Assembly (NCBI RefSeq): GCF_003002815.1
Contig: NZ_PVTF01000012.1
Location: 248,001 to 312,000 of the forward strand
From: Umezawaea tangerina
Lineage (GTDB): Bacteria; Actinomycetota; Actinomycetes; Mycobacteriales; Pseudonocardiaceae
Direction of reading: 5' to 3'
DNA length: 64,000 bases
The translations under genes were made by a program, and so were the position numbers. A model generated the notes under the pieces. The model worked only from the letters and a program-made list of their open reading frames with translations, was not told where the DNA came from and ran no database searches. This document shows positions 38,086 through 46,598 of this stretch, piece by piece (position 1 is the first letter of the stretch; each line of letters starts with the position of its first letter).

Positions 38086-38450
38086 CTACTTGTTCAACGC
38101 CAACGACTCCTCGTCGGTGAGCAACCGCGACCGGATCAGGAACCTGACCCCCAGCGGGGCCTCCAGGGAGAACCCGCTGCCGCGCCCCGGCACGACGTCG
38201 ACCGTGAGGTGGGTGTGCCGCCAGTACTCGAACTGCTTGCCCGACATCCACATCGGCACCGGTTCGCCGTCCACGACGAGGTCGCCGAGGTGCACGTCCG
38301 AGGCGCCGGTGCGGAACTCGCCCGCCAGGTAGCACATCGGGGCGCTGCCGTCGCAGCACCCGCCGGACTGGTGGAACATCAGCGGGCCGTTCTCCTCCCG
38401 GAGGCGGCGGATGAGGTCCGCCGCCGCCGGAGTGAGCGCGATGCGTTCCA

Positions 38451-38451
<1 letters not shown>
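38086..38451 (-). CDS. DUF779 protein, partner of aldehyde dehydrogenase
   Basis: 121 residues from ATG 38451, sharing one base with the TGA of the dehydrogenase gene (TGATG), so it is translationally coupled. DUF779 features: GPLMFHQSGGCCDGSAPMCY with three Cys that could bind metal, and HTHLTVDVVPGRGSGFSLEAPLGVRFLIRSRLLT. Genes of this family usually follow NAD-aldehyde dehydrogenases of the AcoD/ExaC type and are thought to help them; the mechanism is unknown. The second, degenerate dehydrogenase module has no such partner. Confidence 0.94.
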
Positions 38452-40030: not shown

Positions 40031-40050
40031 ACGTTGCAGCCCCGTTGCAT
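40031..40050. promoter_or_regulatory. candidate GAF-regulator operator, module 1
   Basis: ACGTTGCA (40031-40038) and CGTTGCAT (40043-40050) place the word CGTTGCA twice exactly 11 bp apart. The same arrangement occurs at 43022-43041 in the second module. Position between the divergent dehydrogenase and regulator genes suggests the binding site of the regulator. Confidence 0.75.
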
Positions 40051-40119: not shown

Positions 40120-41577
40120 ATGCACCCTGTCGACGAGCACGAGCCGCGGTCCCGTGCGCTGAGCCGGGTGTACGACGCGGTGCTGGGCGGCGGTGCGGGC
40201 GAGCCGCGTCCGGTGATCTCGGAGTCGTGGCACCGCTCGCTCGCGGCGAAGGTCGACCCCGACCAGCACGAGGCTCCCGTGGTGTACGCGGCGGACGAGG
40301 TCGTGGACCTGAGGGAGGCGCACCCGCTCGCGTCGGTGCTGCCGATGCTGCGCGAGACGCTGGTGAGCATCGCGGACGAGGCGATGCACGTCATGGTCAT
40401 CACCGACGCGCACGGCAACATCCTGTGGTGCGAGGGGGAGTCGGAGATCCGGCGGCTGGCCGACCGGGTGCGCCTGACCGAGGGCGCCCGGTGGAGCGAG
40501 GAGGCCAGCGGCACCAACGCGATGGGCACGGCGCTGGCGCTCGGCAAGCCGGTCACCGTGCACTCCGCCGAGCACCTGGTGCGGGCCTACCACGGGTGGA
40601 CGTGCGCGGCGAGCCCCGTGCGCGACCCGGACACCGGCCGGATGCTGGGCGTGGTCGACATCAGCGGTCCACTCCGGACTGTCCACCCGGCCATGGGCGC
40701 GCTGGTGTCCGCGGCGGCGCGGCTCGCCGAAGGGCAGCTGCAGCTCCAGGTGGCGACCAGGGACGAGCGGCTGCGGGCCCGGAACATGAGGCACCTCACC
40801 GCGTTGCGCGGCGAGCCCGGCGCGCTGCTCAGCCCGACCGGCCGGGTGCTGGCGACCGAGCCGCTGGGCATGCTGCCCGCCCGGATCGCGGTCGACGTCG
40901 ACCGGCTGGTGCTGCCCGACGGCCGCGTCGGCGTGCTCGAACCGCTGGCCGAGGGCTACCTGCTGCGCGTGCCGCGCGCGGGCGGTCCGCCGCGGATCCC
41001 GTTGCTGGCGTTGAGCTTCCTGGGCGACGACCACCCGACGGCCGAGCTGGACGGGCGCGAGCTGCCGCTGTCGCTGCGGCACGCCGAGATCCTCACGGCG
41101 CTGGCGCTGCACCCGGCCGGGCTGACCGCCGACCAGCTCGCGCTGCGGCTGTACGGCGAGCGCGGCAACCCGACGACGGTGCGCGCCGAGCTGCACCGGC
41201 TGCGCGCCCAGCTCGGTGACGGCGTGCTGCTGACCCGGCCGTACCGGCTGCGCGCCGACGTGCGGGGCGACTTCGCGGCGGTGCGCAAGGCGTTGCGCGG
41301 CGGGGACGTCGGCTCGGCGGCGACCGGCTACCGGGGCGCGCTGCTGCCGCAGTCGGAGGCGCCGGTCGTGTGCGAGGAGCGCGAGGACCTGCTGGCCGGG
41401 GTGCGGCGCGCGGTGATCACCCGCGGCGACGCGGAGAGCCTGTGGGAGTTCACCCGGACCGAGGACGGCCGGGGCGACGTCGAGGCGCTGACCCACCTCG
41501 AACGCGCGCTCCCCCGCGGCGACCTGCGCCGCGAGCTGGTCGCGAGCCAGCTCCGGCGGGCCCGCGCCGACTGCTGA
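40120..41577 (+). CDS. AcoR-like GAF-domain transcriptional regulator, module 1
   Basis: 485 residues from ATG 40120, with GGGGAGG about 8 nt upstream. The sensor half matches AcoR/sigma-54-activator GAF domains: SESWHRSLAAKVDP, AMHVMVITDAHGNILWCEG, GTNAMGTALALGKPVTVHSAEHLV, YHGWTCAASPVRDPDTG, LGVVDISGP (residues 30-205). There is no sigma-54 AAA+ domain; instead a winged-helix-type region follows (LPLSLRHAEILTALALHPAGLTADQLALRLYGERGNPTTVRAELHRLRAQLGDGVLL, about 310-365), as expected in sigma-54-free actinobacteria. It probably senses an aldehyde or alcohol and controls the divergent dehydrogenase. Confidence 0.9.
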   Translation: MHPVDEHEPRSRALSRVYDAVLGGGAGEPRPVISESWHRSLAAKVDPDQHEAPVVYAADEVVDLREAHPLASVLPMLRETLVSIADEAMHVMVITDAHGNILWCEGESEIRRLADRVRLTEGARWSEEASGTNAMGTALALGKPVTVHSAEHLVRAYHGWTCAASPVRDPDTGRMLGVVDISGPLRTVHPAMGALVSAAARLAEGQLQLQVATRDERLRARNMRHLTALRGEPGALLSPTGRVLATEPLGMLPARIAVDVDRLVLPDGRVGVLEPLAEGYLLRVPRAGGPPRIPLLALSFLGDDHPTAELDGRELPLSLRHAEILTALALHPAGLTADQLALRLYGERGNPTTVRAELHRLRAQLGDGVLLTRPYRLRADVRGDFAAVRKALRGGDVGSAATGYRGALLPQSEAPVVCEEREDLLAGVRRAVITRGDAESLWEFTRTEDGRGDVEALTHLERALPRGDLRRELVASQLRRARADC

Positions 41578-41584
41578 GCACCCC

Positions 41585-42967
41585 TCAGTAGGCCACCACG
41601 AGGTTCTTGGTGTGCTGGTAGGCCTCCACGAGGCCGCGGCTCTCGGCGTGGAACGCGGCGTGCGGCGGCTGGTTGTTGACCCACACCCGGCCCGCGCGGA
41701 TCGCCCGGCCCGCCCGGTAGGCGACGCCCGCGTCGCGCGACCAGACCCCGGCGGCGGCGCCGCGCGGGGCGTCGTTGGCGGCCTTGACGGCGTCGTCGAA
41801 GTCGTCGAACCGGGTGACGAGCGTGACCGGGCCCGCGAAGTCCTCGTGCGGGACGCCCGCGGGGTGGTCGGTCTCGAACACGGTCGGCGCGACGAAGTAG
41901 CCGCCGGTCAGCGCGCCGCCGAGGTCGACGCGGTCGCCGCCGGCGACGAGGCGGGCGCCTTCGCGGGCGCAGAGGTCGACGCGGGACAGCACGTCCGCGA
42001 GGTGAACGGCGCTGACCAGCGGGCCGACCGTGGTCGCCGGGTCCAGCGGGTCGCCGAGGCGGGCCGCGGCGGTGCGGGCGGTGGCGTCGAGCAGGAACCG
42101 GTCGTAGCCCGCGTTCTGGACCAGCGCACTGGACGCCTGGGTCAGCGCCGAGCGGGCGAACGCGTCCAGCGCCCGGTCGTAGCAGGCGTCCTGGCGCTCG
42201 GCGAGGTCGGCGAAGTAGACGCCGGGCGTCCAGCCGCGCGGTGCGGGCGGGCGGGCCGTCCGCGTGACGCGGCGGTTGGCGGCCAGCGGCGCCGCGGCCT
42301 CGACGTCGAACCCCGTGACGACGTTCAGCACGCCGGGCGGGAGCAGGTCGCTGATGAGGCCCACCAGCACGTGGATCGACGCGGGCGTGTACTCCGACGG
42401 CTTGAGCACCACCGTGTTGCCCGCGGCCAGCGCGGGCGCCAGGTGCCACGCGGCGGTGAGCACCGGGGAGCTCCACGGCACCACCAGGCCCACGACGCCC
42501 AGCGGCTCGTGGAAGTGGTGCGCCACCAGGTCGCCGTCCAGCTGCGAGATGCCGCCCTCCTGCGCGCGCACGACACCCGCGCAGTAGCGGAAGTGGTCCG
42601 CGGCGGCGGGCAGGTCGACGGACAGGGTCTCGCGGATCGGCCTGCCCGCGTCCCACGCCTCGGCGACCGCGATGGCCTCCAGGCTGTCCTCGATCCGGTC
42701 GGCGACCTCGGTCAGCACCGCGGCGCGCTCGGCGGCCGTGGTGCGGCCCCACGCCCGCGCGGCACCGTGCGCCGCGTCGAGCGCGCGGTCCACGTCCTCG
42801 GCGGTGCCCCTGGCGACGGCGGTGAACACCTCACCCGTGACGGGACTCGGGTTGGTGAAGTAGTTGCCGCGCGTCGGCGGGACGTACTCGCCGCCCACGA
42901 AGTGGTCGTAACGGTCGCGGAACGAGACGGCGCCGCCCGGTCTGCCCGGTGCCGCGTACTTCGCCAT
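41585..42967 (-). CDS. degenerate aldehyde dehydrogenase paralogue, probable pseudoenzyme
   Basis: 460 residues from ATG 42967, GGAGG 5 nt upstream, open throughout. It aligns with the neighbour dehydrogenase from the first residue (MAKYAAPGRPG.. versus [11 protein letters not shown]..) to the end. But oxyanion Asn166 is Ser (PWSSPVL), the NAD-loop/Glu263 stretch (236-270 of the active copy) is replaced by a short TRTARPPAPRGWTPG (235-249), the Cys302 loop is cut to ALTQASSAL, and the C-terminal [12 protein letters not shown] is missing. All three catalytic residues are lost by in-frame changes while the rest is conserved and codon use is normal. Oxidation of aldehydes is not expected. It may be a sensor, decoy or subunit, or a decaying duplicate. 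Confidence 0.88.
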   Translation of the reverse strand: MAKYAAPGRPGGAVSFRDRYDHFVGGEYVPPTRGNYFTNPSPVTGEVFTAVARGTAEDVDRALDAAHGAARAWGRTTAAERAAVLTEVADRIEDSLEAIAVAEAWDAGRPIRETLSVDLPAAADHFRYCAGVVRAQEGGISQLDGDLVAHHFHEPLGVVGLVVPWSSPVLTAAWHLAPALAAGNTVVLKPSEYTPASIHVLVGLISDLLPPGVLNVVTGFDVEAAAPLAANRRVTRTARPPAPRGWTPGVYFADLAERQDACYDRALDAFARSALTQASSALVQNAGYDRFLLDATARTAAARLGDPLDPATTVGPLVSAVHLADVLSRVDLCAREGARLVAGGDRVDLGGALTGGYFVAPTVFETDHPAGVPHEDFAGPVTLVTRFDDFDDAVKAANDAPRGAAAGVWSRDAGVAYRAGRAIRAGRVWVNNQPPHAAFHAESRGLVEAYQHTKNLVVAY

Positions 42968-43021
42968 GTCTGGCCTCCAGCTTGGGGAACGTCGGCGGAA
43001 CCCCGGAAGCTAGGAAGGTCT

Positions 43022-43041
43022 ACGTTGCACTCGCGTTGCAT
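43022..43041. promoter_or_regulatory. candidate GAF-regulator operator, module 2
   Basis: ACGTTGCA (43022-43029) and CGTTGCAT (43034-43041) repeat CGTTGCA with exactly the same 11-bp step as module 1 (40031-40050), while the bases between differ. Conservation within a diverged intergenic region supports a functional site. Confidence 0.75.
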
Positions 43042-43103: not shown

Positions 43104-44570
43104 ATGTACTGGGGGAAGGATCAGCGCGCGACGGCGTACGCGCTGGGCCGGGTGCACGACGCGGTGCTGGGCGGCGGGACGGCGCAGTTCGGCCCGCGCA
43201 GGCTGATCTCCGAGTCCTGGCACCGTTCCCTGGCCGCCAGGGTGGACCCGAACCGGCACGAGGCGCCGATCGTGCTCGCCCCCGACGAGGTCGCGGACCG
43301 GTGGGCCGAGCACCCGCTGTCGACGGTGCTGCCGGTGCTGCGGGAGACGTTGGTGGGCATCGCGGAGGACGCGATGCACGTCATGATCATCACAGACGCC
43401 GACGGGCACGTCCTGTGGTGCGAGGGCGCCCGCTCGGTGCGGCGCAGCGCGGAGGACGTGCGGCTGGCCGAGGGCGCGCGGTGGACCGAGGACGCGATCG
43501 GCACCAACGCGATGGGCATCGCCCTCGCCGTGGACACCCCGGTCGTCGTGCACTCCGCCGAGCACCTGGTGCGGACCTACCACGGGTGGACGTGCGCGGC
43601 GAGCCCCGTGCACGACCCGGACACCGGCGCCACGATCGGCTCGGTGGACGTCAGCGGTCCGCTGAGCAGCATGCACCCGGCGATGGTCCCACTGGTGTCG
43701 GCCGCCGCGAAGCTGGCCGAGAACGCCCTGCGCGAGCGGCTCGAACGGCGCGACGAACGCCTGCGGGCGCGCAACATGCGGCACCTCATCGCGTTGCGCG
43801 GCGAGCCGGGCGCCCTGCTCGGCCCCACCGGCCGGGTGCTCGTCGCGGAGCCGCACGGCCTGCTGCCCCCGCGGGTCGACCCGACCCTGGAGCGGGTGCG
43901 GCTGGAGGACGGCCGCGAAGGCGTGCTGGAACCGCTGGCCGAGGGCTACCTGCTGCGGGTGGAGCGGACGACCGGGCAGGCCCGGCAACCCCTGCTGTCG
44001 TTGACGTTCCTCGGCGTCGAGCACCCGACCGCCGTGCTCAACGGCCGCGAGCTCCCGTTGACCTCGCGGCACGCCGAGCTGCTGACCGCGCTGGTGCTGC
44101 ACCCGCGGGGGCTGACGGCGGAGCAGCTGGCGCTCAAGCTCTACGGCGACCGCGGCAACCCGGCCACCGTGCGCGCGGAGCTGCACCGGCTGCGCGCGCA
44201 GCTCGGCACCGGGACGCTGCTGACCAAGCCCTACCGGCTGCGGGCCGAGGTGCGGGGCGACTTCGTCTCGGTGCGGGAGGCGTTGCGGCGCGGGGACGTC
44301 GCCGCGGCCGCCGCGGAGTACCGGGGCGCGCTGCTGCCGAGGTCGGAGGCGCCGGTCGTGCGCGACGAGCGCGAGGACCTGCTCGCGGGCGTGCGCCGGG
44401 CGGTGATCGCGTCCGGGGACCCGGAGGGCCTGTGGGAGTTCACCCGCACCGACGGCGGGCACGACGACGTGGAGGCGCTGCACCGGCTCGTCCGGACGCT
44501 GCCCCGCGACGACGTGCGGCGCGAGCTGGTGGCCGGGCAGCTGCGCCGGGCCCTGGCGTCGGACGGCTGA
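43104..44570 (+). CDS. AcoR-like GAF-domain transcriptional regulator, module 2
   Basis: 488 residues from ATG 43104 (MYWGKDQRATAY), with GGGAGGA just upstream; the open frame to 43041 includes the operator. It is a paralogue of the module 1 regulator over its whole length, with the same GAF motifs (GTNAMGIALAVDTPVVVHSAEHLV, YHGWTCAASPVHDPDTG, GSVDVSGPLSSMHPAM) and winged-helix region (LPLTSRHAELLTALVLHPRGLTAEQLALKLYGDRGNPATVRAELHRLRAQLG). Unlike the dehydrogenase beside it, it shows no loss of key segments. The two regulators could share operators and cross-regulate. A terminator follows at 44600. Confidence 0.9.
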   Translation: MYWGKDQRATAYALGRVHDAVLGGGTAQFGPRRLISESWHRSLAARVDPNRHEAPIVLAPDEVADRWAEHPLSTVLPVLRETLVGIAEDAMHVMIITDADGHVLWCEGARSVRRSAEDVRLAEGARWTEDAIGTNAMGIALAVDTPVVVHSAEHLVRTYHGWTCAASPVHDPDTGATIGSVDVSGPLSSMHPAMVPLVSAAAKLAENALRERLERRDERLRARNMRHLIALRGEPGALLGPTGRVLVAEPHGLLPPRVDPTLERVRLEDGREGVLEPLAEGYLLRVERTTGQARQPLLSLTFLGVEHPTAVLNGRELPLTSRHAELLTALVLHPRGLTAEQLALKLYGDRGNPATVRAELHRLRAQLGTGTLLTKPYRLRAEVRGDFVSVREALRRGDVAAAAAEYRGALLPRSEAPVVRDEREDLLAGVRRAVIASGDPEGLWEFTRTDGGHDDVEALHRLVRTLPRDDVRRELVAGQLRRALASDG

Positions 44571-44634: not shown

Positions 44635-45267
44635 CTAGTAGACGACGTCCGAGCAGGAGTAGAACGCCTCCGGGCTGTCCGAGCGCTGCCACACGACGTA
44701 GATCAGGTGCCGCCCGGACTTGCCGGCGGGCAGCTTCACGTTGATCTGGTAGACCCCGTTGACCAGCGGCGGGTCGGTGACCTTGGCGAACGACGCGTCG
44801 AGGTCACCCCACTTGAGCGGGGACAGCGGGTCGTAGCCGTTCCTGGTGTTGAACAGCTCGAACGAGCCCTTGTGCGGGGCGGTGGCCTTCAGCGTGAACG
44901 TGATGTTCGCGCCGCTGGTCAGCTTCGTGGTCGCCCAGTCGGTGCGGGGCAGGTCGAGGCCCTTGTACTTGTCGCGGCCCGCGCTGCACAGCTTGCCGTC
45001 GGGGATGATCGACCGGCTGTTGCCCGCGGCGTTGGCGATGTTGACCTCGTGCCAGTCGTACATGGCCTGCGTGCCGCCCGCGGCGATGGCGGCCTTGCAG
45101 CCGCCGCTCGTGGGCGCCTCGGGGTTCTCGTTCCACCGGCAGTTGTACGTGCGGCTGAACGGCCCCTGGGCCGAGCCGTGGCCCTGCGCCACGCCGGTCA
45201 CGAGCAACGGCAGTGCGACGGCCAACGAAGAGAGCAGGGCCACCAGCCCGAGCTTGCGCGCTTCCAC
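44635..45267 (-). CDS. secreted lytic polysaccharide monooxygenase, AA10 (chitin-binding)
   Basis: 210 residues from GTG 45267 with GAGGGAGA 8 nt upstream. The signal peptide ends AQG and the mature protein begins HGSAQGPFSRTY, so His1 and the later His in LKATAPHKGSFELF form the copper-binding histidine brace. Other AA10 marks: CRWNENPEAPTSGGCKAAIAAGG, DGKLCSAG, LPAGKSGRHLIYVVWQRSDSPEAFYSCSDVVY. No extra carbohydrate-binding module follows. It oxidatively cleaves chitin (or cellulose) and complements the GH20 hexosaminidase at 35589. Confidence 0.95.
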   Translation of the reverse strand: MEARKLGLVALLSSLAVALPLLVTGVAQGHGSAQGPFSRTYNCRWNENPEAPTSGGCKAAIAAGGTQAMYDWHEVNIANAAGNSRSIIPDGKLCSAGRDKYKGLDLPRTDWATTKLTSGANITFTLKATAPHKGSFELFNTRNGYDPLSPLKWGDLDASFAKVTDPPLVNGVYQINVKLPAGKSGRHLIYVVWQRSDSPEAFYSCSDVVY

Positions 45268-45396
45268 GGGATCTCCCTCGACGGTGTTCGGTGGCGGCCT
45301 GGCACTCGGAAGAGGACTGGACCACAAGTCTGATAGGTCCAGACCTGTCGCACCAGGGCTGTTCGGGCGCATCCACCCGCCCTCTAGGCTGGTCAC

Positions 45397-45996
45397 ATGG
45401 GGTATTTCCAACCGGGGGACACGGCCCTGCGCCGTGAGGTGCTGCACGGGAGACCGTGGGCCGTGACGCCGTCGAGGGTCGTGCTGGACGAGCCGGGGCT
45501 GCTGGTCGTCTTCGTCGTGCCGGGCACCCGCTTCGGGTTCCCGGAGCACCACTGGCCGCACGGCTGGCAGGTCGCGGGCAACACGCACTGGCGCGGCAAC
45601 GGCAAGCTCCAGATGCACCGGCCGGACGAGGCGTACTCGGTCGACCTGTACTGGCACGGCGAGGAACGGAGGTTCGGCGGCTGGTACCTGAACCTCCAGG
45701 ACCCGTACCGCCGCACCGAGCTGGGCTTCGACACCCTCGACCACGAGCTGGACTACTGGGTGCCCGCCGACGGCGAGTGGGTCGAGAAGGACCGCGAGGA
45801 CTTCGAGCGCCAGGTCGTGGCGGGCAAGTACTCCCCCGAGCTGGCCGGGCGGATCCGGCGGCAGGGCGAGGACATCGAGGCCATGCTGACCGCGGGCACG
45901 ACGTGGTGGGACCCGAGGTGGGCCGACTGGGAGCCCGACCCGGACTGGCCCGTGCCGACCCTGCCGGAGGGCTGGGAGGACTACCCGCTCCCGTGA
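45397..45996 (+). CDS. DUF402-domain protein
   Basis: 199 residues from ATG 45397. TAGGCT ends 6 nt before the start, so the mRNA is probably leaderless. The DUF402 core is FGGWYLNLQDPYRRTELGFDTLDHELDYWVPADGEW with the Asp/Glu cluster that binds metal in relatives (YjjG/Ntdp-like nucleoside phosphatases). The C-terminus is Trp- and acidic-rich (TTWWDPRWADWEPDPDWPVP). Family members hydrolyse nucleoside di/triphosphates; specificity is unknown. Its stop overlaps the next gene start by 4 nt (GTGA). Confidence 0.92.
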   Translation: MGYFQPGDTALRREVLHGRPWAVTPSRVVLDEPGLLVVFVVPGTRFGFPEHHWPHGWQVAGNTHWRGNGKLQMHRPDEAYSVDLYWHGEERRFGGWYLNLQDPYRRTELGFDTLDHELDYWVPADGEWVEKDREDFERQVVAGKYSPELAGRIRRQGEDIEAMLTAGTTWWDPRWADWEPDPDWPVPTLPEGWEDYPLP

Positions 45997-46598
45997 ACAT
46001 CCGACCGCTGACCCCCGCGACGCTCGTGGCCGAGCTGGTCGCGCGGATCGACGCGCTGCCGCGGGACGGCCGGGCCCGCGTGGTCGTGGACGGGGCCGAC
46101 GCCGCGGCGCCCGGCGAGGTCGCCGACGCGCTCGTCGACCCGCTGCGGGCGCTGGGACGACCGGTGCTGCGGGTGTCGACAGGGGACTTCCTGCGGCCCG
46201 CGTCCGTCCGGCTGGAGCACGGCCGGTTCGACCCGCTGGCGTTCCGCGACGAGTGGCTCGACGTGGGCGGGCTGGTGCGGGAGGTGCTCGCCCCGCTCGC
46301 GCCCGGCGGGACCGGGCGGGTGCTGCCGTCGCTGTGGGACGCGGCCGCGGACCGGGCCAGCCGCGCCGGGTACGTGGAGCTCGGGTCCGGCGGGGTGCTG
46401 CTGCTCGACGGGCCGCTGCTGCTGGACCGCGGGTTACCGGTGGAGCTGTCGGTGCACCTCTGGCTCTCACCGGGGGCGCTGGCGCGGAAGACGGCGGCCG
46501 ACCGGGAGTGGACGCTGCCCGCGTACTCCGACTACAAGCCGCAGGCCGACGTCGTGGTGCGCTACGACCACCCGGACCGGCCCGCGCTCGTCGTCTGA
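45993..46598 (+). CDS. uridine-kinase-like protein with a degenerate P-loop
   Basis: 201 residues from GTG 45993, coupled to the DUF402 gene. Overall it resembles actinobacterial uridine kinase-like proteins (STGDFLRPASVRLEHGRFDPLAFRDEWLDVGGL, LGSGGVLLLDGPLLLDRGLPVELSVHLWLSPGALARK). The Walker A position reads VVVDGADAAAPGEVADAL and lacks the usual GKT/S. The YDHPDRPALV ending is typical. Kinase activity is doubtful; it may bind nucleotides differently or be regulatory. Confidence 0.85.
   Translation: MNIRPLTPATLVAELVARIDALPRDGRARVVVDGADAAAPGEVADALVDPLRALGRPVLRVSTGDFLRPASVRLEHGRFDPLAFRDEWLDVGGLVREVLAPLAPGGTGRVLPSLWDAAADRASRAGYVELGSGGVLLLDGPLLLDRGLPVELSVHLWLSPGALARKTAADREWTLPAYSDYKPQADVVVRYDHPDRPALVV

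Follow-up and report, generated by a model that had tools for sequence, protein, structure and literature searches.

The window analysed here, a stretch of 64,000 nucleotides from Umezawaea tangerina, contains two copies of one unit in tandem, each consisting of a GAF regulator gene head-to-head with an aldehyde dehydrogenase (ALDH) gene (Table 1). In one of the two copies, the ALDH gene has lost catalytic and NAD-cleft elements in frame, and the rest of the protein is under purifying selection. Across four genera, the reduced gene is inherited together with an operator-like repeat and the GAF regulator gene as a single unit. With slightly less than even confidence, we favour the reading that the gene encodes a selected pseudoenzyme, which originated from a duplicated ExaC-type ALDH, is tied to the GAF regulator and probably acts as a non-catalytic co-regulator. 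We infer that the pseudoenzyme is made and touches the GAF regulator, and that the regulator binds the repeat.

A reduced aldehyde dehydrogenase next to its intact relative

The 460-aa protein can be aligned end to end with the 507-aa ExaC protein encoded by the neighbouring unit (61% identity). With residues numbered as in the intact protein, Asn166 is replaced by Ser, a short Pro-rich piece substitutes for the stretch with the NAD glycines 241 and 246 and Glu263, the Cys302 loop (EVCTCP) is deleted and [12 protein letters not shown] is mostly absent. The FGGYK motif near the C-terminus is lost, including its glycine, and Glu403 is changed to Asp. A first-pass annotation made from the sequence had reported the exchange of Asn166, the loss of the Glu263 stretch and of the Cys302 loop and a C-terminal loss, all of which are seen in the alignment with the intact copy. 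Its statement that every catalytic residue had disappeared is correct for Asn, Glu and Cys, and the NAD glycines are gone as well, but Lys189, an NAD contact in ALDHs, is retained, so that some of the cofactor residues remain. The open frame and the GGAGG ahead of the ATG were found as described. For the roles of the ALDH residues, the accessible part of PMC8160307 is a partial source, and the remainder is established ALDH knowledge.

Table 1. Features of the two tandem units in the window.
Feature	Position	Strand	Basis
DUF779 protein gene, next to intact ExaC	38086..38451	-	Pfam PF05610, 153.6 bits
Intact acetaldehyde dehydrogenase ExaC, 507 aa	38451..39974	-	NCBIfam NF050026, 956 bits, cut-off 900
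Direct repeat TGCAAC-N5-TGCAAC upstream of the intact ExaC gene	40033..40049	-	sequence scan
GAF1 regulator, head-to-head with intact ExaC	40120..41577	+	Pfam GAF; paralogue of GAF2
Reduced ExaC-type aldehyde dehydrogenase (pseudoenzyme), 460 aa	41585..42967	-	open frame; alignment with intact copy; orthologue in Umezawaea G001
GGAGG, probable ribosome-binding site of the reduced gene	42974..42978	-	read from sequence (+ strand CCTCC)
Direct repeat TGCAAC-N5-TGCAAC, probable operator between reduced gene and GAF2	43024..43040	-	perfect match
GAF2 regulator, head-to-head with the reduced gene	43104..44570	+	Pfam GAF; weak Trans_reg_C below cut-off

Another Umezawaea genome (G001) contains an open orthologue with 77% identity in the same gene arrangement, and the GAF2 orthologue beside it is 83% identical. 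The reduced gene is thus unlikely to be a chance finding. Given the orthologues, it is unlikely that the missing segments are due to an assembly error, a possibility that the first-pass annotation had raised against its own interpretation. Next to the two units, the gene at 44635-46470 on the minus strand encodes a protein with a C-terminal part that, as we presume, resembles a secreted chitin-binding or AA10-type protein.

An AlphaFold2 model of the 460-aa protein reached a pLDDT of 86.1 and a pTM of 0.83, with values below 50 only at residues 435-444, and its best match in the PDB was ExaC from P. aeruginosa (9koi, TM 0.93). The ALDH fold is thus predicted to be retained in the window copy, and the same applies to the model of the K. 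aridum copy, which is weak at residues 138-151 and 406-435, presumably the parts matching the ALDH oligomerisation strands. The end-to-end alignment and the predicted fold are in line with the earlier observation that the ends of the fold and most helices are kept. In Pfam, the protein belongs to the ALDH superfamily (PF00171, 304 bits against a gathering cut-off of 23). The reduced copy resembles ExaC (NF050026; 9koi) in its full-length sequence relation, its predicted fold and the operator-like repeat shared with many intact actinobacterial copies, but it lies outside the ExaC family proper, with a score of 519 bits against the cut-off of 900, Ser in place of the catalytic Asn, deletion of Glu263 and Cys302, and absence of the NAD glycines.

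Reduced copies in four genera

In a survey of 390 genomes of the family (E <= 1e-100, plus follow-ups), reduced ExaC copies were detected in 2 of 3 Umezawaea, 12 of 25 Saccharothrix, all 8 Kibdelosporangium and all 24 Lentzea genomes. These counts rest on the matches listed and are lower bounds, since the copy in S. algeriensis (G058) scored under the 1e-100 threshold and other weak reduced copies were possibly missed. One of the eight genomes of the Kibdelosporangium group (G221) bears the title Actinosynnema sp. ALI-1.44, and the reduced Lentzea copies of G240 and G244 are known from match rows only. All 44 reduced genes that were read, including the window gene and the S. algeriensis gene (L200), have open frames, so that the comparison with related genomes proposed in the first-pass annotation yields unbroken reduced orthologues in four genera. 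A contig titled Rhodococcus rhodnii NRRL B-16535 (L187, JOAA01000004.1) also bears a reduced ALDH of the Kibdelosporangium group; this strain is probably mislabelled.

The genera differ in the company that the reduced copy keeps. Intact ExaC is present in all three Umezawaea genomes, and a second, intact-looking ExaC copy was found in 23 of the 24 Lentzea genomes, the exception being G250; five of these 23 copies were read fully and the others are represented by N-terminal match rows only. The 25 Saccharothrix genomes (G058-G082) divide into 10 with an intact copy, 12 with a reduced copy and 3 with neither. Among the matches listed, no close intact ExaC was found in the eight Kibdelosporangium genomes, the 12 Saccharothrix genomes with a reduced copy and Lentzea G250, and the other ALDHs listed for genomes without a close ExaC are at most 43% identical to intact ExaC. 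A class-wide sample of 394 genomes contained 162 with an ExaC match at 1e-120; no reduced ExaC from outside the family was among the matches listed, all of which are approximately 1480-1510 bp long except the reduced gene of the window.

Purifying selection on the reduced genes

Codon models (GY, F3X4) yielded omega values of 0.063 for the reduced genes of Lentzea (21 genes), 0.12 for those of Kibdelosporangium (8 genes) and 0.112-0.135 for the Saccharothrix sets, compared to 0.029-0.038 for the intact sets. When the two reduced Umezawaea genes were fitted together with two intact ones, omega was 0.052. An omega of 1 was rejected in every set fitted (2dlnL 204-2233; fixed tree, kappa on a grid). 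The absolute values depend on the model, as uncorrected NG86 counts gave 0.315 for the window gene and its G001 orthologue, 0.18-0.52 across seven reduced pairs and 0.154 for an intact pair. The constraint on the reduced copies is roughly 2-4 times weaker than on the intact ones. Third codon positions were the most variable in all seven reduced pairs, although narrowly so for G071/G075. With omega far below 1, the dN/dS comparison suggested in the first-pass annotation supports its claim of a maintained pseudoenzyme. Its argument that random decay usually leaves stops is weak in DNA so rich in G+C, and the case is carried by the codon-level tests. The reduced gene has one defining property of a pseudoenzyme, as its product is an enzyme relative that has been maintained but lacks the conserved catalytic motifs; it does not qualify as a pseudogene, because all 44 frames read are open and omega is 0.063-0.135 in the purely reduced sets.

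The distribution of constraint along the protein has changed as well. In five intact Lentzea genes, omega was 0.024-0.025 in the catalytic part versus 0.070 in residues 1-137, whereas the constraint was even in the 21 reduced Lentzea genes (0.055-0.062, with 0.055 in residues 1-137). Thus, the extra constraint on the catalytic part of the intact Lentzea copies is gone in the reduced ones. Three parts of the reduced Kibdelosporangium genes gave omega values of 0.108, 0.066 and 0.130. In a comparison of nine chosen reduced with nine chosen intact rows, the divergence of the reduced copies was 1.2-1.7 times the intact level in residues 1-100 and 2-6 times in most other parts. Identity dropped from 0.87 among the intact to 0.50 among the reduced rows in residues 139-160, and from 0.99 to 0.47 in the C-terminal strand 485-499, two segments that presumably correspond to ALDH oligomerisation strands. 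Residues 186-217 were comparatively well kept (identity of 0.79 among the reduced rows).

Differing lesions and their history

The lesions differ among the lineages: they are few in G060 and S. algeriensis and many in Kibdelosporangium, with gradations in between, and there is no catalytic lesion that all reduced copies share. They are not nested, as the catalytic residues that are kept vary by lineage: G060 retains Asn and Glu, G250 Asn and Cys, and G071 and G075 retain Asn. The S. algeriensis gene (L200:3001-4488) is near full length and, judged by eye, has kept Glu and Cys but lost Asn and the FGGYK motif; by its sequence it appears to be a further intermediate. Lys189 is replaced by Glu in all 22 reduced Lentzea copies read and by Arg or His in four others. 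As to the conservation of the deletions, which the first-pass annotation had put forward as a check, the reduced state recurs in four genera, whereas the lesions themselves differ between lineages.

A family-20 glycoside hydrolase gene that faces the ALDH gene is common to the loci of Saccharothrix (21), Umezawaea (G001 and G002) and Kibdelosporangium (8) and to the reduced loci of Lentzea (22), and was absent at the five intact Lentzea loci. Since all 21 Saccharothrix loci share this neighbour, the intact and the reduced forms occupy the same place as alternatives, and a single Saccharothrix locus hosts intact, half-reduced and strongly reduced alleles. At the 41 reduced loci without an intact neighbour (L060-L098, L147, L148), no DUF779 gene was found within the 11-19 kb examined.

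Trees calculated with and without the deleted columns placed the reduced genes near the intact Saccharothrix copies, and the nearest intact relatives belong to six Saccharothrix species without DUF779. A single clade of all reduced forms was not rejected (p-AU 0.12). A single clade of the 11 reduced Saccharothrix forms in the tree, a group that was chosen after the tree had been seen, was weakly rejected (p-AU 0.032). At minimum, three state changes are required on the tree if the direction is free, and by our own reading about five if only losses are allowed. These data are most simply read as the result of several independent reductions, although this reading is not a proven one.

Association with a GAF regulator and a direct repeat

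At all 44 loci read, a divergent GAF regulator gene lies head-to-head with the reduced gene. The repeat TGCAAC-N5-TGCAAC is perfect upstream of 43 out of 43 reduced genes, where it starts 63-105 bp upstream, and it is also perfect at the S. algeriensis locus (44 of 44 in all). Upstream of 20 intact genes, the repeat was perfect in 12 cases and had one mismatch in six, with four mismatches at two distant outgroup genes. Within a set of 54 named loci, including many intact Streptomyces- and Mycobacterium-type copies, it was perfect at 20, had one mismatch at 21 and two mismatches at 4; the other nine rows include three invalid ones (L184, L195, L196), in which the upstream stretch was wrongly placed. 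A scan of the window detected the repeat twice, both times at an ALDH promoter, versus 0.08 occurrences expected with at most one mismatch. Thirteen scanned genomes contained 1-4 perfect repeats each, compared to 0-2 for a reversed control pattern, so the number per genome is near background and only the place of the repeat is telling. In seven of these genomes (six with reduced, one with intact genes), the sole perfect copy was the one at this promoter. One perfect repeat in G216 was located without a GAF gene among the ORFs listed there.

All three Umezawaea genomes contain a further perfect repeat upstream of a third GAF paralogue, which supports the view that the repeat is a site of this type of regulator. 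For the window genome, where this layout was seen, the third repeat (L225:3122-3138; G000:C13:188621-188637) lies between the third GAF paralogue and a divergent gene that looks TetR-like by eye. Taken together, the repeat may be regarded as the ancestral exaC operator that is probably bound by the GAF regulator.

Of 40 genomes, 37 contained the regulator gene, and the three that lacked it were precisely the Saccharothrix genomes with neither an intact nor a reduced ExaC. Regulators beside reduced genes had omega values of 0.060 in Lentzea, 0.095 in Kibdelosporangium (7 of the 8 genes) and 0.101 and 0.124 in Saccharothrix, which in the codon models is about the constraint on the adjacent reduced genes. 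The link between the reduced protein and the GAF regulator, which had been suggested in the first-pass annotation, is supported by position, the shared repeat and joint absence, and we infer an interaction of the two proteins in addition. However, intact exaC genes show this pairing and repeat as well, so that position alone is no proof of a working partnership.

The third Umezawaea genome (G002) lacks the reduced copy and has a single GAF regulator (L139:6602-8530), which resembles a mosaic with an N-terminal part like GAF1 (96%) and a C-terminal part like GAF2 (89%). Apparently, recombination between the two tandem regulators fused them and removed the reduced gene, which is therefore dispensable in this genome. 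Regulators of unusual length also occur beside intact genes. At five intact Lentzea loci (L140:7587-8699, L141-L144), the regulator beside ExaC has approximately 370-397 aa and, where compared, lacks about residues 211-291 between the GAF domain and the DNA-binding part; the Lentzea regulator beside the reduced gene is of full length. In Saccharothrix G064 (L130), intact ExaC is accompanied by a regulator frame of only 326 aa, in which the DNA-binding part seems largely lost; we count this case against our favoured reading.

Possible functions of the reduced protein

Among the functions on which selection may act, the regulator circuit is the strongest candidate: reduced genes survive where no close intact ExaC is among the matches listed, but none was seen without the regulator. 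In the mechanism that we propose, the GAF regulator would bind TGCAAC-N5-TGCAAC and govern the divergently transcribed gene, perhaps along with its own. Under this control, the pseudoenzyme would be produced and would feed back non-catalytically on the circuit, most probably as a co-regulator that binds the GAF protein. Such a regulatory side function may predate the loss of catalysis and could already have been present in intact ExaC. Where catalysis was unneeded at the locus, the active site would have been lost, probably several times, with the regulatory body being kept. A bolder version of this idea, which we consider conceivable but doubtful, is that intact ExaC is a trigger enzyme that binds its GAF regulator and sets the activity of the latter, and that duplicate loci in related genera repeatedly (about five times by our own count) freed regulation from catalysis by excising pieces of the active site, resulting in a dedicated ALDH-derived transcriptional co-regulator.

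Alternatively, the reduced protein may perform other chemistry or bind a ligand without NAD-dependent oxidation, for example as sensor of aldehydes or nucleotides. The predicted fold and Lys189 of the window copy and the comparative conservation of residues 186-217 would suit such a function, but the replacement of Lys189 in 22 Lentzea and four other copies and the lack of a catalytic residue that is kept by all of them make it unlikely, if still a serious competitor. A slowly decaying relic, which would have stayed open as stops are rare in G+C-rich DNA and would drop the dead loops of its active site singly, could account for lesions that are lineage-specific and range from few to many, for the loss of the gene in G002 and for an NG86 omega of up to 0.52 in one pair. 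Nevertheless, we strongly disfavour decay and hold it to be very improbable: all reduced sets fitted gave omega values far below 1, the gene occurs in many species per genus with a perfect repeat in 44 of 44 cases, and the neighbouring regulator is similarly constrained.

The first-pass annotation had also considered a role of the reduced protein alongside the active enzyme, as its decoy or partner. The reduced protein could join active ExaC in hetero-oligomers and tune or inhibit it, like the inactive variant of human ALDH2, which acts in heterotetramers according to the accessible part of PMC10211241. Two Umezawaea genomes and 23 of the 24 Lentzea genomes contain both forms, and in the window their genes are adjacent and share the same repeat. 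As a conserved role, however, this does not agree with the persistence of the reduced gene in all eight Kibdelosporangium genomes, 12 Saccharothrix genomes and Lentzea G250, for which no close ExaC is among the matches listed, nor with the relaxed constraint on the segments matching oligomerisation strands, which are also poorly predicted in the K. aridum copy. We therefore regard hetero-oligomers as improbable. Partnership with active ExaC as a general role was rejected, given that reduced lineages beyond Umezawaea and most of Lentzea have no close ExaC among the matches listed.

Relation to known enzymes without catalysis

Long PutA proteins contain a non-functional ALDH-like domain, which likewise is a bacterial ALDH-fold module without catalysis, but is part of a multidomain enzyme, whereas reduced ExaC is encoded by a free-standing gene beside a regulator. 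In yeast, Gal3 is a dead copy of the kinase Gal1 that acts as signal transducer. Reduced ExaC would be comparable as a paralogue of a metabolic enzyme with lost catalysis and a regulatory role, although the families are unrelated and the role is established for Gal3 and proposed for reduced ExaC. The accessible parts of PMC10650815 and PMC8160307 describe human ALDH16A1 as an ALDH-family protein without the catalytic triad that is proposed to act by binding. The window protein also misses the triad; whereas ALDH16 carries a further domain at the C-terminus, the bacterial protein consists of one shortened domain (460 aa, a single Aldedh match split into two stretches, no extra C-terminal ALDH-like domain), has lost whole segments and is paired with a GAF regulator.

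Pseudoenzymes in general are treated in the accessible part of PMC10211241. A literature search at abstract level, mainly in open papers, retrieved no report of a free-standing dead bacterial ALDH tied to a regulator and nothing specific on the GAF regulator. Dead ALDHs as such are already known, and the free-standing, regulator-tied bacterial form appears to be new. The path from enzyme to regulator usually has to be rebuilt from its two endpoints, whereas here steps of it appear to survive at one locus within one genus, where it can be tested allele by allele with the regulator and the predicted operator at hand. Our results suggest that the inactivated enzyme has been given a new role, possibly in gene control, and is not decaying. 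For genome annotation they are a warning, as such genes match the ALDH family well despite their missing catalytic residues.
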